A DNA stretch of 64,000 nucleotides from Pseudophaeobacter flagellatus. GTDB lineage: Bacteria > Pseudomonadota > Alphaproteobacteria > Rhodobacterales > Rhodobacteraceae. The notes beneath the pieces were generated by a model, which was given only the letters and a program-made list of their open reading frames with translations, was not told where the DNA came from and searched no databases. The translations under genes were made by a program, and so were the position numbers. Below, piece by piece: positions 41,899-48,062 of the stretch (position 1 is its first letter; every line of letters begins with the position of its first letter). Location: assembly GCF_021228235.1 (NCBI RefSeq), contig NZ_JAJQRG010000010.1, positions 62,001 through 126,000 of the forward strand, read 5' to 3'.

Positions 41899-42399
41899 TC
41901 AGGCCTGGCGTTGCAGGCGTTCTTCCAGAACATCAAAGGGCACCCCTGGTTCATCCTTGGCACCACGGATCACCAGCGAGGTTTTGACGCTGGCCACATT
42001 TGGTGTGGTCAAGAGCTGCGCTGTCAGGAAGCTCTGAAAGGTGCTCAGATCCGGAGAGACGCATTTCAGGATGAAATCCACCTCACCGTTCAGCATGTGA
42101 CACTCGCGTACCAGTGGCCAACTGCGGCATTGCTCTTCAAAGGCGGTGAGTTCGGATTCGGCCTGGCTTTCCAGCCCCACCATTGCAAAGACCTGAACCT
42201 CAAAGCCCAGCTCGCGGGCATTGACCTCGGCGTGGTAGCCGCCAATCAGGCCGGCCTCTTCCAGGGCGCGCACACGGCGCAGGCAGGGCGGAGCAGAAAT
42301 GCCCACACGTTTGGCCAGCTCGACATTGGTCATGCGCCCATCGGCCTGCAACTCCGAGAGTATCTTGCGATCAATCGGATCAAGACGGGTTGTGACCAT
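41899..42399 (-). CDS. Lrp/AsnC family transcriptional regulator
   Basis: A 166-residue regulator with an N-terminal helix-turn-helix (LDPIDRKILSELQADGRMTNVELAKRVGISAPPCLRRVRALEEAGLIGGYHAEVN) and a C-terminal RAM effector domain (FAMVGLESQAESELTAFEEQCRSWPLVRECHMLNGEVDFILKCV). It is divergent from trxB. In Rhodobacterales this pair is conserved. It likely controls itself and perhaps trxB in response to an amino acid or a related ligand; which is not evident. Confidence 0.92.
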   Translation of the reverse strand: MVTTRLDPIDRKILSELQADGRMTNVELAKRVGISAPPCLRRVRALEEAGLIGGYHAEVNARELGFEVQVFAMVGLESQAESELTAFEEQCRSWPLVRECHMLNGEVDFILKCVSPDLSTFQSFLTAQLLTTPNVASVKTSLVIRGAKDEPGVPFDVLEERLQRQA

Positions 42400-42449
42400 G
42401 GTGTAAAGCTCCTGTCAGATTGCGTTTCTTATAGCACTACTGCAAGACT

Positions 42450-42480
42450 GCGCAATATTATTTCACAACGGCGCAATATT
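42450..42480. promoter_or_regulatory. Candidate Lrp operator: two direct repeats
   Basis: GCGCAATATT occurs at 42450-42459 and again at 42471-42480, exactly 21 bases apart (two helical turns), in the 313-base gap between divergent lrp and trxB. A related GCGCAGTTTT lies at 42691-42700 near trxB. The rest of the gap shows no gene. Confidence 0.45.
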
Positions 42481-42712
42481 CTTTGCCTCAGCCAAGTTCA
42501 AGCGGCAAAAGCCCCTCTTCCCCCGTGCCGCGCCCCTGTACCACAAATCACACCAAAGCCTGCGCCGCTGCGCCCGTCCAGCACCAGCCCTGCCCGCGCA
42601 ACAGGGGTTTAAGAGCTGCCGCCCTATCGTTATATGCAAGCCTGACGGCGGCCACGGACGCCATTTTTGCTGATTCAATGTGCAAATACTGCGCAGTTTT
42701 TGGGGATACGAG

Positions 42713-43654
42713 ATGAGCGACACGCGCCACACCAAGGTTTTGATCATTGGCTCCGGTCCAGCCGGCTATACCGCTGGCGTTTATGCCGCCCGCGCCATGC
42801 TGGAACCCGTCCTGGTGCAGGGCATCGAGCCCGGCGGCCAGCTGACGACCACCACCGAGGTGGAAAACTACCCCGGCTTTACCGAGGTGCAGGGCCCGGA
42901 TCTGATGATCAAGATGCAGGAACATGCCCAGGCCATGGGCTGCGAGGTCATCGGCGATATCATCACTTCGCTCGACACCTCTGCGCGTCCCTTCACCGCC
43001 AAGGGCGACAGCGGCACCACCTATACGGCGGATGCAGTGATCCTGGCCACTGGTGCCCGTGCCAAATGGCTGGGGCTGGAAACGGAAGAAAAGTTCAAGG
43101 GCTTTGGCGTTTCCGCCTGCGCAACCTGTGATGGCTTCTTTTACCGCGGCCAGGAAATTGTGGTCATTGGCGGCGGCAACACCGCAGTCGAAGAAGCGCT
43201 GTTCCTGACCAATTTTGCCTCCAAGGTGACGCTGATCCACCGCCGCGATGAGCTGCGCGCCGAAAAGATCCTGATTGATCGGCTGATGAAAAACCCCAAG
43301 ATTGAGCCGCTCTGGTTCCATGAACTGGATGAGGTGATCGGCAGCGAAAGCCCGCTTGGGGTTGAGGGTGTGCGCGTCAAGCACAGCAAGACCGGCGAAA
43401 TCACCGAGATCCCCTGCAAGGGCGTCTTTGTGGCTATCGGTCACGCCCCGGCCAATGAACTGGTCAAGGATAGCCTTGAACTGCACAATGGCGGCTATGT
43501 CTCGGTCAAGCCCGGCACCACCGAAACCTCGGTTCCCGGTATCTTTGCTGCGGGTGATCTGACCGATCACAAATACCGCCAGGCGGTGACCTCGGCCGGC
43601 ATGGGCTGCATGGCCGCACTGGACGCGGAACGCTTTATCGCGGAACAGGAGTAA
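42713..43654 (+). CDS. trxB: Thioredoxin-disulfide reductase
   Basis: FAD enzyme that uses NADPH to reduce thioredoxin. It has 313 residues. FAD-binding motif is [20 protein letters not shown] near residue 10, the active-site pair is in [10 protein letters not shown] (Cys-Ala-Thr-Cys, near 139), the NADPH motif is [16 protein letters not shown] near 155, and the C-terminal [28 protein letters not shown] is typical. ATG 42713 is favoured over the in-frame ATG at 42680. Followed by rraB-like gene after 5 bases. Confidence 0.96.
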
Positions 43655-43659
43655 GCCGG

Positions 43660-43998
43660 ATGCCGCAGGATTTCGACACCCAGCGCGACGAAACCGTTGC
43701 GGCATTCAACGCCCTGCAGGCCGAACATGGCCTGCCCGAGGTGGCGGACGTGGATTATTTCTTTGTCCCCACCCACGACGGGGCCGACTGGCGTGCCTTG
43801 GCAGAGGAACTGAGCCGCAGCGAGTATAGCTGCACCTATGTCAGTGCCGATGAAGCAGAGGATGGCACCCCCTATCTCGCCGCCACCCTGCCAGATCAGA
43901 TGATTTCGGCCACCGGCATCTGGATCGGCGAGGAGGTGGCCACCCGCGCCGCACTGAAGCACGGGTTTGCCCCCGATGGCTGGGGACTGGAGAGCTAA
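43660..43998 (+). CDS. RraB family ribonuclease E inhibitor-like protein
   Basis: A 112-residue acidic protein with the RraB domain (DVDYFFVPTHDGADWRALAEELSRSEYSCTYVSADEA, then ATLPDQMISATGIWIGEEVATRAALKHGFAPDGWG). In E. coli RraB binds RNase E and alters mRNA decay; the role in alphaproteobacteria is untested. It starts 5 bases after trxB, so shares its transcript. Confidence 0.8.
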   Translation: MPQDFDTQRDETVAAFNALQAEHGLPEVADVDYFFVPTHDGADWRALAEELSRSEYSCTYVSADEAEDGTPYLAATLPDQMISATGIWIGEEVATRAALKHGFAPDGWGLES

Positions 43999-44121
43999 AC
44001 ACTGCCCGCGCCCGCCTTGGCATCGGTGGTTTTGCCCCCAGGGGTGACCTGGCATTGACCCAGGAGGCTACGCCCGGCACTCTGTTCCTGGACAGAACCC
44101 AAAAGACAGGAGAAGCGGCGG

Positions 44122-45801
44122 GTGGCAAGCGCACTCTGGCGGGGGAATTGGATCACCCGCACCAGGATCATCACCGGGCTGGTGCTGATGACCTATGCTT
44201 TCTTTCATTTCATCAATCTTGGGCTTGGGCTGTTTTCACCAACCGCAATGGAGGCGATGCAAGAAGCGCGCCATGTCATTACGCGCAATCCCCTGGGGAT
44301 TGTCATCATGGCCAGTTCCCTGTTGCTGCATCCTGGCCTGGCGCTGTGGCGGCTGGCGCGCAAACGCAGCCTGCGCATGCCACTGGGCGAGGCCGTTCAG
44401 ACCATTCTGGGCCTGTTGATCCCGCTGCAGCTCTTATCTCACATCACCCATAGTTCTGTTGCGCATCACCTCTTTGCGGTGCGCGATGACTACCCCTATA
44501 TTATCGTGCTGATGTGGAATAGCCCGGTGATCTGGTGGCAATCGACGCTGCTTCTGGTGGTCTGGATCCATGGCTGCATAGGGCTGCATTTCTGGCTGCG
44601 CCTCACCCGATGGTGGCGCAAGACCCTCCCCTATATGATCGGCCTGGCGGTTTTCATCCCCAGCTTTGCCCTCGCCGGATTGCTTAGCGAAGGGCGACGG
44701 ATCTATGACATCTTTGTCGAGGGCAGCCAGCGCGCCGATCTGATGGCCTATTTCAATTGGCCCACCCCCGAGAATTTTGCCACCCTGCGCCTGACCGAAA
44801 CCCGTCTATTACAGATCTTCTTGCTGCTGCTGGCCCTGACCGCCTGCGCCTATGGGCTGCAAAAGCTGCGCCGCAGTGGCCGATCCGTGCACATCAGTTA
44901 TTCCGACGGCCCCTCGATTACGGCGGAAAAAGGCATGACCCTTTTGGAAATGTCACGCAGCCACGCGGTGCCCCATACCTCCCTGTGCGGTGGCAAGGGG
45001 CGCTGCACCACCTGCCGGGTGGTGATCGACGCGGGCAGCGACGGCCTGCCACCCCCCGCCCCACCCGAAGCGCGCAGCCTAGCGGCTGTCAAAGCCCAGC
45101 CCAATATGCGGCTGGCCTGCCAGATCCGCCCAGAGGCACCGCTGACCGTGACCCGCATGTTTCACCCCAGCGGCCGCCGAAAGCGCGCCCATGCCAGCCA
45201 GGGGCGCGAACAGCAGCTGGCGATCCTGTTTCTCGACATGCGCGGCTTTACCGCCCGCACCTCTGCCCAATTGCCCTATGACGTGGTCTTTTTGCTGAAC
45301 CGATTCTTTGATGCCGTAGTCCCCTGCGTCATCAGCAGCGGCGGCCATGTGGACAAATACCTTGGCGATGGCTTTCTCGCCGTCTTCGACGCGGCTAAGG
45401 CCCAGCAGTCCGCCCAGGCGGCGCTTCGGGCCGCCTGCCAGATTGGCCTGGCGCTTGAAACCTTCAACCAGACCCTACAGGCCGAAGGGGATGAGCCGAT
45501 AAAGATCGGCATGGGGCTGCATCTGGGAGAGTTGGTGATTGGCGAAATTGGTGCCGCGGGCCATGCCCCACGCACCATCATCGGTGACACCGTTAATGCC
45601 GCCAGCCGCCTGGAGGGCGCCAGCAAGGACGAAGGGGTCGAGTTGATGGTTTCGGCCGCAGTGTTGCACGCGGCAGGCTACGCCACCTCAGATCTCGAAC
45701 TCCGCACCTTTCACCTTCGCGGCGTCGCAGAGCCGCTGATGGCCCTTGCCCTGCGTCAGGCCGCGACACTTCCCGAAATTTTGCAAAGATCTGAACCATA
45801 G
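44122..45801 (+). CDS. Membrane-anchored, 2Fe-2S ferredoxin-containing class III adenylate/guanylate cyclase
   Basis: A 559-residue three-module fusion. Residues 1-250 hold about six membrane helices with histidines at 29, 70, 107, 110, 150 and 156 suited to bind heme b, like the succinate-dehydrogenase-type anchor of Sinorhizobium CyaC. Residues about 255-350 form a plant-type 2Fe-2S ferredoxin domain (Cys289, Cys295, Cys298, Cys333). Residues about 365-550 are a class III cyclase with metal-binding Asp372 and Asp416, Lys412 and catalytic Asn492/Arg496. It probably makes cAMP in response to quinone or redox state. The first codon is GTG with AGGAG 10 bases before it. It follows rraB by 123 bases. 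Whether it makes cAMP or cGMP is not settled by sequence. Confidence 0.9.
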   Translation: MASALWRGNWITRTRIITGLVLMTYAFFHFINLGLGLFSPTAMEAMQEARHVITRNPLGIVIMASSLLLHPGLALWRLARKRSLRMPLGEAVQTILGLLIPLQLLSHITHSSVAHHLFAVRDDYPYIIVLMWNSPVIWWQSTLLLVVWIHGCIGLHFWLRLTRWWRKTLPYMIGLAVFIPSFALAGLLSEGRRIYDIFVEGSQRADLMAYFNWPTPENFATLRLTETRLLQIFLLLLALTACAYGLQKLRRSGRSVHISYSDGPSITAEKGMTLLEMSRSHAVPHTSLCGGKGRCTTCRVVIDAGSDGLPPPAPPEARSLAAVKAQPNMRLACQIRPEAPLTVTRMFHPSGRRKRAHASQGREQQLAILFLDMRGFTARTSAQLPYDVVFLLNRFFDAVVPCVISSGGHVDKYLGDGFLAVFDAAKAQQSAQAALRAACQIGLALETFNQTLQAEGDEPIKIGMGLHLGELVIGEIGAAGHAPRTIIGDTVNAASRLEGASKDEGVELMVSAAVLHAAGYATSDLELRTFHLRGVAEPLMALALRQAATLPEILQRSEP

Positions 45802-45986
45802 TCCTGATTACCCTATCCAGACGGGACAGTGTTTCAGCAATCAGGACCACAGCAGATCAAATGGCGTTGCAGCGCAGCAACGCTGCCCGATCTCACACAT
45901 TTCGGGTATTTTTGGCCTTTGCTCGCAGGGCTATTTATGCGATGCGTTCACGCCTGAACACACATTAACCCAGACGCCATCCCGCC

Positions 45987-48062
45987 ATGACACCGCCCGA
46001 CACACCCGCCACGCCAAACGAGGAAGACCAGATCTTCCGCCTCCTGCGCCAGCTTGATCTGGCACCGGAAGCGTCACAGCGCGCCACTGCAGCAGCGCTG
46101 GGTCTCTCTTTGGGGCGATTGAACACACTGTTGCGCAGTGTCGCTGATACCGGGCTGATCACCATAAGCGACAGAGCTGGCCCCGATAAGCGTCAGCGCT
46201 TTGCCTACACGCTGACACGACATGGCGCCACTGAAAAAAGACGACTCACCGATCAATTCCTCTCCCGCAAGTTGGCTGAATACGATGTGCTGCACGCGGA
46301 ACTTACCGGCACAGCAAGCGGCTTGCCCCATATTAAACACAGGACTCATCCAATGCAGAATAACCTGGCTCCTATCCCCGAGCTCTATGTCTCCTATGAC
46401 TCTGCCCAGAAGCTGAAAACCGAGGCGGGAGAACTGAAAAGCCACGACCTGACCCCGCGCCAGATCTGTGATCTTGAACTGCTGATGAACGGCGGCTTCA
46501 ACCCGCTGAAAGGCTTCCTGAGCGAGGAAGACTACAACGGTGTTGTGGAAAACATGCGCCTGGCCGACGGCACGCTCTGGCCGATGCCGATCAACCTGGA
46601 TGTCTCCGAAGAGTTTGCCGCCACGCTAGAAGTGGGCGAAGATATCGCACTGCGCGATCAGGAAGGCGTGATCCTGGCAACCATGACTGTCACCGACAGC
46701 TGGACCCCAAACAAAGCGCGCGAAGCCGAAATGGTCTTTGGCGCCGACGATGACGCACACCCTGCGGTCAACTACCTGCACAATCAGGCTGGCAAGATCT
46801 ATCTGGGCGGCCCTGTCACCGGCATCCAGCAGCCTGTGCACTATGACTTCCGCGCCCGTCGCGACACTCCAAACGAGCTGCGCGCCTATTTCCGCAAGCT
46901 GGGCTGGCGCAAGGTCGTGGCCTTCCAGACCCGCAACCCGCTGCACCGCGCCCACCAGGAACTGACTTTCCGCGCCGCGCGTGAAGCCCAGGCCAACCTG
47001 CTGATCCATCCGGTTGTCGGCATGACCAAACCCGGCGATGTCGATCACTTTACCCGCGTGCGCTGCTACGAGGCCGTGCTGGACAAATACCCCACGTCCA
47101 CCACCTCGATGAGCCTGCTGAACCTGGCGATGCGTATGGCAGGCCCCCGCGAAGCGGTCTGGCACGGGTTGATCCGCAGAAACCACGGCTGCACCCATTT
47201 CATCGTTGGTCGCGACCACGCAGGCCCCGGCAAGAACTCGGCCGGTGAAGATTTCTACGGCCCCTATGATGCGCAGGACCTGTTCCGCACCCATCAGGAA
47301 GAAATGGGCATCGAAATGGTCGATTTCAAACATATGGTTTGGGTGTCCGAGCGCGCCCAATACGAAGCCATCGACGAGATCGAAGACAAGGATGACGTTA
47401 CCATCCTCAACATTTCCGGCACCGAGCTGCGCCGCCGCCTGTCCGAGGGCCTGGAGATCCCCGAGTGGTTCTCCTTCCCCGAAGTGGTCAAGGAACTGCG
47501 CCGCACCAAGCCACCGCGCTCTAAGCAGGGCTTTACCGTCTTCCTGACCGGCCTGTCCGGATCAGGCAAATCCACCATCGCCAACGCGCTGATGATCAAG
47601 CTGATGGAAATGGGCGGCCGCCCCGTGACCCTGCTGGATGGCGATATCGTGCGTAAAAACCTCAGCTCCGAGCTGGGCTTCTCGAAAGAGCACCGCGATC
47701 TGAATATCCGTCGCATCGGCTATGTGGCCTCTGAGATCACCAAAAACGGCGGCATCGCCATCTGTGCGCCCATTGCGCCCTACGCCACCACCCGCCGGGC
47801 CGTGCGTGAAGATGTCGAAGCCTTTGGTGCCTTTGTTGAAATCCATGTCGCGACCTCGCTGGAAGAATGCGAACGCCGCGACCGCAAGGGCCTGTATAAA
47901 CTGGCCCGAGAAGGCAAGATCAAAGAGTTCACCGGGATCTCTGACCCCTATGACGTACCCACCAGCCCTGAGCTGAGCGTCGAGACCGAGAACGTCGATG
48001 TCGACAACTGCGCGCATCAGGTGCTGTTGAAGCTGGAAAACATGGGTCTGATCTCCGGCTAA
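45987..48062 (+). CDS. Bifunctional sulfate adenylyltransferase/APS kinase, fused in frame to an EPS-associated MarR-type regulator
   Basis: One frame of 691 codons. Residues 1-122 resemble the EPS-associated MarR family regulators (DQIFRLLRQLDLAPEASQRATAAALGLSLGRLNTLLRSV, then LTRHGATEKRRLTDQFLSRKLAEYDVLHAEL). From Met123 (46353), 569 residues match Sat-CysC: sulfurylase motif TRNPLHRAHQEL, GRDHAGPGKNS, then APS kinase P-loop GLSGSGKS near 527. Together they make APS and PAPS from sulfate. An AGGA element 9 bases before 46353 allows a separate start, so the cell may produce the enzyme alone, the fusion, or both. The regulator and the downstream glycosyltransferase suggest polysaccharide sulfation as well as assimilation. 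Confidence 0.85.
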   Translation: MTPPDTPATPNEEDQIFRLLRQLDLAPEASQRATAAALGLSLGRLNTLLRSVADTGLITISDRAGPDKRQRFAYTLTRHGATEKRRLTDQFLSRKLAEYDVLHAELTGTASGLPHIKHRTHPMQNNLAPIPELYVSYDSAQKLKTEAGELKSHDLTPRQICDLELLMNGGFNPLKGFLSEEDYNGVVENMRLADGTLWPMPINLDVSEEFAATLEVGEDIALRDQEGVILATMTVTDSWTPNKAREAEMVFGADDDAHPAVNYLHNQAGKIYLGGPVTGIQQPVHYDFRARRDTPNELRAYFRKLGWRKVVAFQTRNPLHRAHQELTFRAAREAQANLLIHPVVGMTKPGDVDHFTRVRCYEAVLDKYPTSTTSMSLLNLAMRMAGPREAVWHGLIRRNHGCTHFIVGRDHAGPGKNSAGEDFYGPYDAQDLFRTHQEEMGIEMVDFKHMVWVSERAQYEAIDEIEDKDDVTILNISGTELRRRLSEGLEIPEWFSFPEVVKELRRTKPPRSKQGFTVFLTGLSGSGKSTIANALMIKLMEMGGRPVTLLDGDIVRKNLSSELGFSKEHRDLNIRRIGYVASEITKNGGIAICAPIAPYATTRRAVREDVEAFGAFVEIHVATSLEECERRDRKGLYKLAREGKIKEFTGISDPYDVPTSPELSVETENVDVDNCAHQVLLKLENMGLISG

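Follow-up and report, generated by a model that had tools for sequence, protein, structure and literature searches.

Does the protein encoded at this locus, in which a membrane anchor is joined to a nucleotidyl cyclase, place cyclic nucleotide synthesis under redox control, and is such a design new? We addressed this question in a window of 64,000 nucleotides (the whole stretch of DNA that was analyzed) from Pseudophaeobacter flagellatus, contig NZ_JAJQRG010000010.1, positions 62,001 to 126,000. Our analysis indicates that the protein is very probably a redox-controlled adenylate cyclase of the CyaC kind, predicted to combine a diheme anchor, a ferredoxin relay and cAMP output. The three-part anchor-ferredoxin-cyclase design is real, has been described previously and is common in alphaproteobacteria and, as judged from its sequence, the window protein is a genuine and apparently intact representative of this known kind.

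Domain architecture of the window protein

The gene (44122-45801, plus strand) encodes 559 amino acids, has full-length homologs and begins with a GTG start codon; by reading of the sequence, an RBS-like AGGAG (44108-44112, plus strand) lies 9 nt upstream. The original prediction had placed here a protein of three modules with a ferredoxin containing Cys289, Cys295, Cys298 and Cys333, and analysis by ORF, Pfam and AlphaFold2 found these coordinates, modules and cysteines to be correct. All modules lie on the plus strand. A six-helix membrane anchor (44149-44871), delineated with AlphaFold2, carries the predicted heme ligands His29 (44206-44208), His70 (44329-44331), His107 (44440-44442) and His150 (44569-44571). 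It is followed by a 2Fe-2S ferredoxin domain at residues 265-338 (44914-45135; Pfam Fer2, E 5e-8), for which the four cysteines are the predicted cluster ligands, and by a linker at residues 339-361 (45136-45204). The class III nucleotidyl cyclase catalytic domain occupies residues 362-544 (45205-45753), as assigned by alignment and by Pfam, where Guanylate_cyc matches residues 362-513 (E 8e-16). The first 250 residues, comprising the anchor, gave no Pfam match at E values up to 1.

An intact cyclase active site had also been predicted, and alignment confirmed that D372, K412, D416, T485, N492 and R496, which we take to be the metal, substrate and transition-state residues, are all present. 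K412 and T485 presumably fit ATP as the substrate and assignment to subclass IIIb; the threonine at this position is presumably common also to the published cluster (1) of class IIIb cyclases discussed below. A sequence search of the PDB returned adenylate cyclases as the nearest relatives of the cyclase part.

Structural relatives of the membrane anchor

Modeling of the anchor alone with AlphaFold2, using 42 sequences, gave a mean pLDDT of 95.8 and a pTM of 0.89, with six long helices at residues 10-37, 57-80, 88-118, 135-159, 163-199 and 216-250. In the full-length model (pLDDT 89.7, pTM 0.61), the sole stretch below 50 was at residues 351-358, within the linker between ferredoxin and cyclase. 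His29, His70, His107 and His150 are distributed one per helix across the first four long helices of the anchor model. When this model was compared with the PDB using Foldseek, the first match was the diheme cytochrome b subunit of Wolinella succinogenes quinol:fumarate reductase (QFR; 2bs4 chain C), with a probability of 1.00 and a TM-score of 0.53 over 219 alignment columns at 14% identity, but with an E value of only 0.25. The second-ranked match had a probability of 0.14, and no match in this search reached E <= 0.001. We presume that the QFR subunit holds two hemes by four histidines on four helices, and this is the arrangement suggested for the window anchor.

Sequence profiles gave a similar picture. 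An anchor profile searched against PDB sequences at E values up to 10 returned a single match, the succinate dehydrogenase subunit C chain 6lum_C (E 0.0073). None of the 42 family members matched any Pfam cytochrome b family within the anchor, and a search of 60 genomes of the phylum for diheme SdhC relatives (TIGR02046) found none. From the model, the anchor appears to be related to the cytochrome b subunits of fumarate reductase and succinate dehydrogenase, a relationship that is weak by E value, and the structural evidence is supportive of a diheme anchor but is not decisive alone. The two proteins also differ in setting: the Wolinella subunit is part of an oxidoreductase and not a sensor, whereas the window anchor sits on a cyclase.

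Conservation of the predicted redox ligands

Conservation was examined in an alignment, A3, of the window protein with 41 of 80 loci carrying alpha-, gamma- or betaproteobacterial labels, at 27-62% identity to the window protein (27-39% for the rows outside the roseobacter group). Eleven loci, which were close relatives or gave two-piece or truncated matches, were omitted from A3 and checked separately later. The other 28 omitted loci (L088-L094 and L096-L116) are anchor-less matches; L088 covers ferredoxin and cyclase (residues 273-517), and the remaining 27 start at query residue 324 or later. His29, His70, His107 and His150 as well as Cys289, Cys295, Cys298 and Cys333 were identical in all 42 A3 rows. 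We then considered 63 further loci, namely the 11 omitted from A3, 29 from the class search and 23 (L009-L031) from the family search; 59 of these are distinct, since L015, L020, L026 and L031 duplicate proteins already counted. A second alignment, A1, combined the window protein with 21 of the 23 family-search loci, leaving out L024 (truncated) and L026 (flagged, TAG). Across the 63 loci all eight ligand sites were kept wherever the frame reaches them, and gaps occurred solely in the truncated L024, L049 and L085. Judged from these sequences, this pattern of histidine and cysteine conservation lies far beyond chance. The anchor had been described as histidine-rich, which holds for the four invariant residues and for H156, found in 39 of 42 A3 rows, and for nothing more.

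Pfam detected Fer2 in all 42 A3 members and Guanylate_cyc in 41, the exception being a Variovorax protein (L095:5662-7599, plus strand) in which the four anchor histidines and four ferredoxin cysteines are intact while the cyclase part is degenerate, with no Pfam cyclase match and several altered active-site residues. Position 412 is less constant: of the 42 members, 23 have K and 16 have Q, while T, N and R are found once each. Because the eight ligands are invariant and K412 is not, the sensor sites are more constrained than parts of the active site. In the tree, all 16 members with Gln412 belong to a single supported branch of 18 rows. The lysine at residue 412 is, we assume, the substrate-defining position of the cyclase, and the substrate preference of the Gln412 members may differ.

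Relationship to CyaC and to described class IIIb cyclases

Class IIIb cyclases with a 6TM-ferredoxin-cyclase order are already described in a 2016 eLife paper (PMC4821796). Thirty such sequences, from alpha- and betaproteobacteria, form an isolated cluster there, with the ferredoxin between the membrane and catalytic domains; they have four precisely spaced histidines and are confidently predicted to carry two hemes, the example given being R. palustris Q132R4 (PMC4821796). This cluster, cluster (1), shares with the window protein its module order, four anchor histidines, ferredoxin and alphaproteobacterial origin, and we found no structural difference when comparing against the published description. 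The taxonomic range differs, as that survey names alpha- and betaproteobacteria, whereas we found the family also on contigs labeled gammaproteobacterial.

Sinorhizobium meliloti CyaC (SMc01818) is drawn, according to the legend of Fig. 6 in a 2023 paper (PMC10463352), with two b hemes, one distal and one proximal, as well as a [2Fe-2S] cluster, and is reported there as ubiquinone-responsive; its diheme anchor is also cited in a 2022 paper (PMC9552081). By description and drawing, CyaC has a diheme-b 6TM anchor, a [2Fe-2S] cluster and a class III cyclase, as the window protein appears to have. The original prediction treated the ferredoxin as an extra module inserted into the CyaC plan. Since CyaC is itself drawn with a [2Fe-2S] cluster (PMC10463352), this contrast is void, and because the module order was already described in 2016 (PMC4821796), we discarded the ferredoxin as a novelty. 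The gene neighborhoods differ: cyaC is reported next to a TetR (CycR) and a LysR gene (PMC10463352), whereas the window gene lies among Lrp, TrxB, RraB and sat/cysC genes. The absence of the TetR (CycR)/LysR adjacency from the window locus weakens only strict orthology with S. meliloti CyaC, as this adjacency does not define the kind.

The first prediction, of a class III cyclase carried by a heme-type anchor, found support in the four invariant histidines, the fold match to diheme QFR and the likeness to the CyaC group as published. We consider the case for a diheme anchor to be strong, because the ligand invariance and the published cyclase group add to the structural evidence.

Genomic neighborhood of the cyclase gene

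The genes next to the cyclase gene encode a reductase resembling TrxB (42716-43654) and a protein with an RraB domain (43660-43998), as had been noted, and their presence had been taken to fit a redox theme. We examined neighbors by tblastn (E 1e-8) at 51 named cyclase loci (L037-L087). TrxB was found near the cyclase at 21 of these, all with roseobacter-type or Rhodobacter-labeled names, an Lrp-like gene at 22, sat/cysC at 21 and RraB at one (L054). TrxB was absent from the other 30, among which short contigs truncate L049 and several more. L077 showed just a weak Lrp-like match 5 kb off.

The converse comparison started from TrxB. Among Rhodobacteraceae TrxB loci (the best 30 of 61 genomes), Lrp adjoined TrxB in 30 of 30 and the cyclase was present in 7, including the window. 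Seventeen of the 23 cyclase-less loci in this set had sat/cysC at most 1.5 kb from TrxB, and RraB adjoined TrxB in two cyclase-bearing loci (the window and G038) and in three without a cyclase. RraB adjoins the cyclase also in G769, a genome of the same genus. The order lrp-trxB-(rraB)-(cyclase)-sat/cysC, at 41899-48062 in the window, is thus a recurrent Rhodobacteraceae block whether the cyclase is present or absent. Because the cyclase comes and goes inside a fixed block, with trxB keeping its neighbors in relatives that have no cyclase there, adjacency to trxB is no evidence of function, and on this synteny comparison we rejected the proximity of trxB and rraB as a functional signal. What stands of the original interpretation is the heme-anchored class III cyclase; the inserted ferredoxin and the trxB/rraB theme do not. 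At the end of the block, the ATP sulfurylase/APS kinase encoded at 45987-48062 (plus strand) has an N-terminal winged helix-turn-helix-like stretch (HTH_24, E 2.5e-4, just below the cut-off), and the corresponding frame of a same-genus relative (L241) has the same N-terminal start.

Proposed mechanism and alternative inputs

By analogy with the CyaC group as published, and with the invariant histidines and fold match pointing the same way, the window protein is predicted to convert redox state into a cyclic nucleotide, as originally suggested. The anchor would most likely bind two b hemes via His29, His70, His107 and His150 and would exchange electrons, in either direction, with the ubiquinone pool. 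Placed right after helix 6, the [2Fe-2S] ferredoxin may form the cytoplasmic end of this electron chain, and its redox state could be passed through the short linker to the cyclase dimer, where K412 and T485 would favor conversion of ATP to cAMP. By analogy to the CyaC report, cAMP output would probably be higher when the chain is oxidized. The cAMP produced may then act via Crp-type receptors: the genome contains nine cNMP_binding matches, so that cAMP has potential receivers. It also contains six further cyclase-domain loci, and the window enzyme is therefore one of several cyclase sources; one additional match was an NqrF-like frame.

Electrons could instead enter from the cytoplasmic side, with a soluble reductase feeding the ferredoxin, and through it the hemes and quinone, so that the cyclase would read the NAD(P)H side, alone or together with quinone. 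In NqrF a membrane helix likewise precedes a similar Fer2 domain; a match to the nqrF model of NCBIfam covers residues 246-337 (E 5e-10), phmmer aligns NqrF over residues 233-341, taking in part of the preceding membrane helix, and the invariance of Cys289, Cys295, Cys298 and Cys333 is in keeping with such an input. However, the nqrF match reaches only 38.9 bits, far short of the 295 bits set as cut-off, and the window protein is without the FAD/NADH domain (Pfam). CyaC is reported as ubiquinone-responsive (PMC10463352), and TrxB is absent from 30 of the 51 named cyclase loci (contig-cut L049 among them) and in roseobacters holds its position without the cyclase. We therefore consider a reductase-fed ferredoxin unlikely and favor quinone as the predicted input.

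Heme and [2Fe-2S] centers can react with oxygen and NO, and this general reactivity would fit hemes or a cluster that sense a diatomic gas and not quinone. Since four invariant histidines imply two bis-histidine hemes, however, no free heme site is expected in the anchor, and we assume that the hemes of its top fold match, the QFR diheme subunit, are likewise bis-histidine hemes without a free site. With the precedent of CyaC, as reported, being quinone (PMC10463352), we regard a gas input as very unlikely. It is highly improbable that the cyclase is constitutive and that its anchor and ferredoxin persist as relics for the sake of folding, because eight ligands are invariant while residue 412 varies. 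In favor of the relic reading, the Variovorax protein L095 shows that sensor and output can separate, though it does so in reverse, with the sensor ligands intact and the cyclase degenerate.

Distribution of the family

The family profile (E 1e-40) matched 145 of 385 sampled alphaproteobacterial genomes. Counted among the matches listed, 111 in 104 of the 385 genomes span anchor to cyclase, defined as a profile start at position 21 or earlier and an end at 520 or later. Within the family to which the organism belongs, 27 of 198 genomes matched at 1e-30, and 24 of these have the window architecture, with one (L024) truncated by its contig. Plasmid records with a match at 1e-20 numbered 168, of which 165 had matches covering 80% or more of the query and 142 were from Rhizobium; two plasmid-borne Rhizobiaceae relatives that we inspected have other neighbors (glycosyltransferase, FkbM methyltransferase). 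In the 42-row tree the window protein groups with Ruegeria, Tropicibacter and Tritonibacter in a supported clade of six rows.

A different fusion was met in three Rhodobacteraceae genomes, where anchor-less proteins of 443-467 amino acids combine Fer2 with a class III cyclase and end in a Rieske 2Fe-2S domain (L032:985-2316, minus strand; L035:1474-2874, plus strand; L036:1009-2382, minus strand). Nothing relevant to such Fer2-cyclase-Rieske fusions was found in titles and abstracts of the open-licence literature.

Anchor-ferredoxin genes beside MscS-type channels

Anchor-ferredoxin genes without a cyclase occur in four genomes, each together with an MscS-type gene: G139 (L117:5717-9174), G055 (L118:4770-8095), G257 (L149:5920-9008) and G828 (L249 and L255, the latter at 1-2940). 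The units of G139, G055 and G257 are complete and keep all four histidines and all four cysteines; that of G828, cut at its 5' end by the contig, keeps the three histidines and four cysteines that are covered. In all four cases the end of the unit's gene and the beginning of the gene that follows share four bases, ATGA or GTGA, where the GTG starts are the earliest ones in the frames as listed. The following gene encodes an MscS-type channel by Pfam in each case. Such units are rare, being found in G055 and G257 among 385 genomes of the class, in G055 and G139 among 394 of the family and in G257 and G828 among 43 of one order. Frames of about 390-430 amino acids that look stand-alone in G543, G276 and G483 were excluded from the count because each of these genomes also has a cyclase fragment continuing from about the same query position. 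A candidate in G819 was likewise ruled out as a stand-alone anchor, as a frameshift divides its cyclase gene into two frames (L254:2175-4013, minus strand).

The cyclase-less copies overlapping MscS-type genes in four genomes support portability of the unit. We judge the chances to be about even that the diheme and [2Fe-2S] unit is a portable redox receiver with an exchangeable output, including a redox-tuned channel of the mechanosensitive type. Redox gating of an MscS-type channel is only a guess, and titles and abstracts of the open-licence literature yielded nothing relevant on a link between MscS and heme or 2Fe-2S centers. If true, it would mean that a respiratory-type cytochrome has been put to a new use, as a membrane redox unit on ion channels. 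For the cyclases themselves, the invariance of the predicted ligands in every complete member examined points experimenters to the residues for testing. CyaC is not a rhizobial oddity, and the window protein is one clear and testable addition to its kind.
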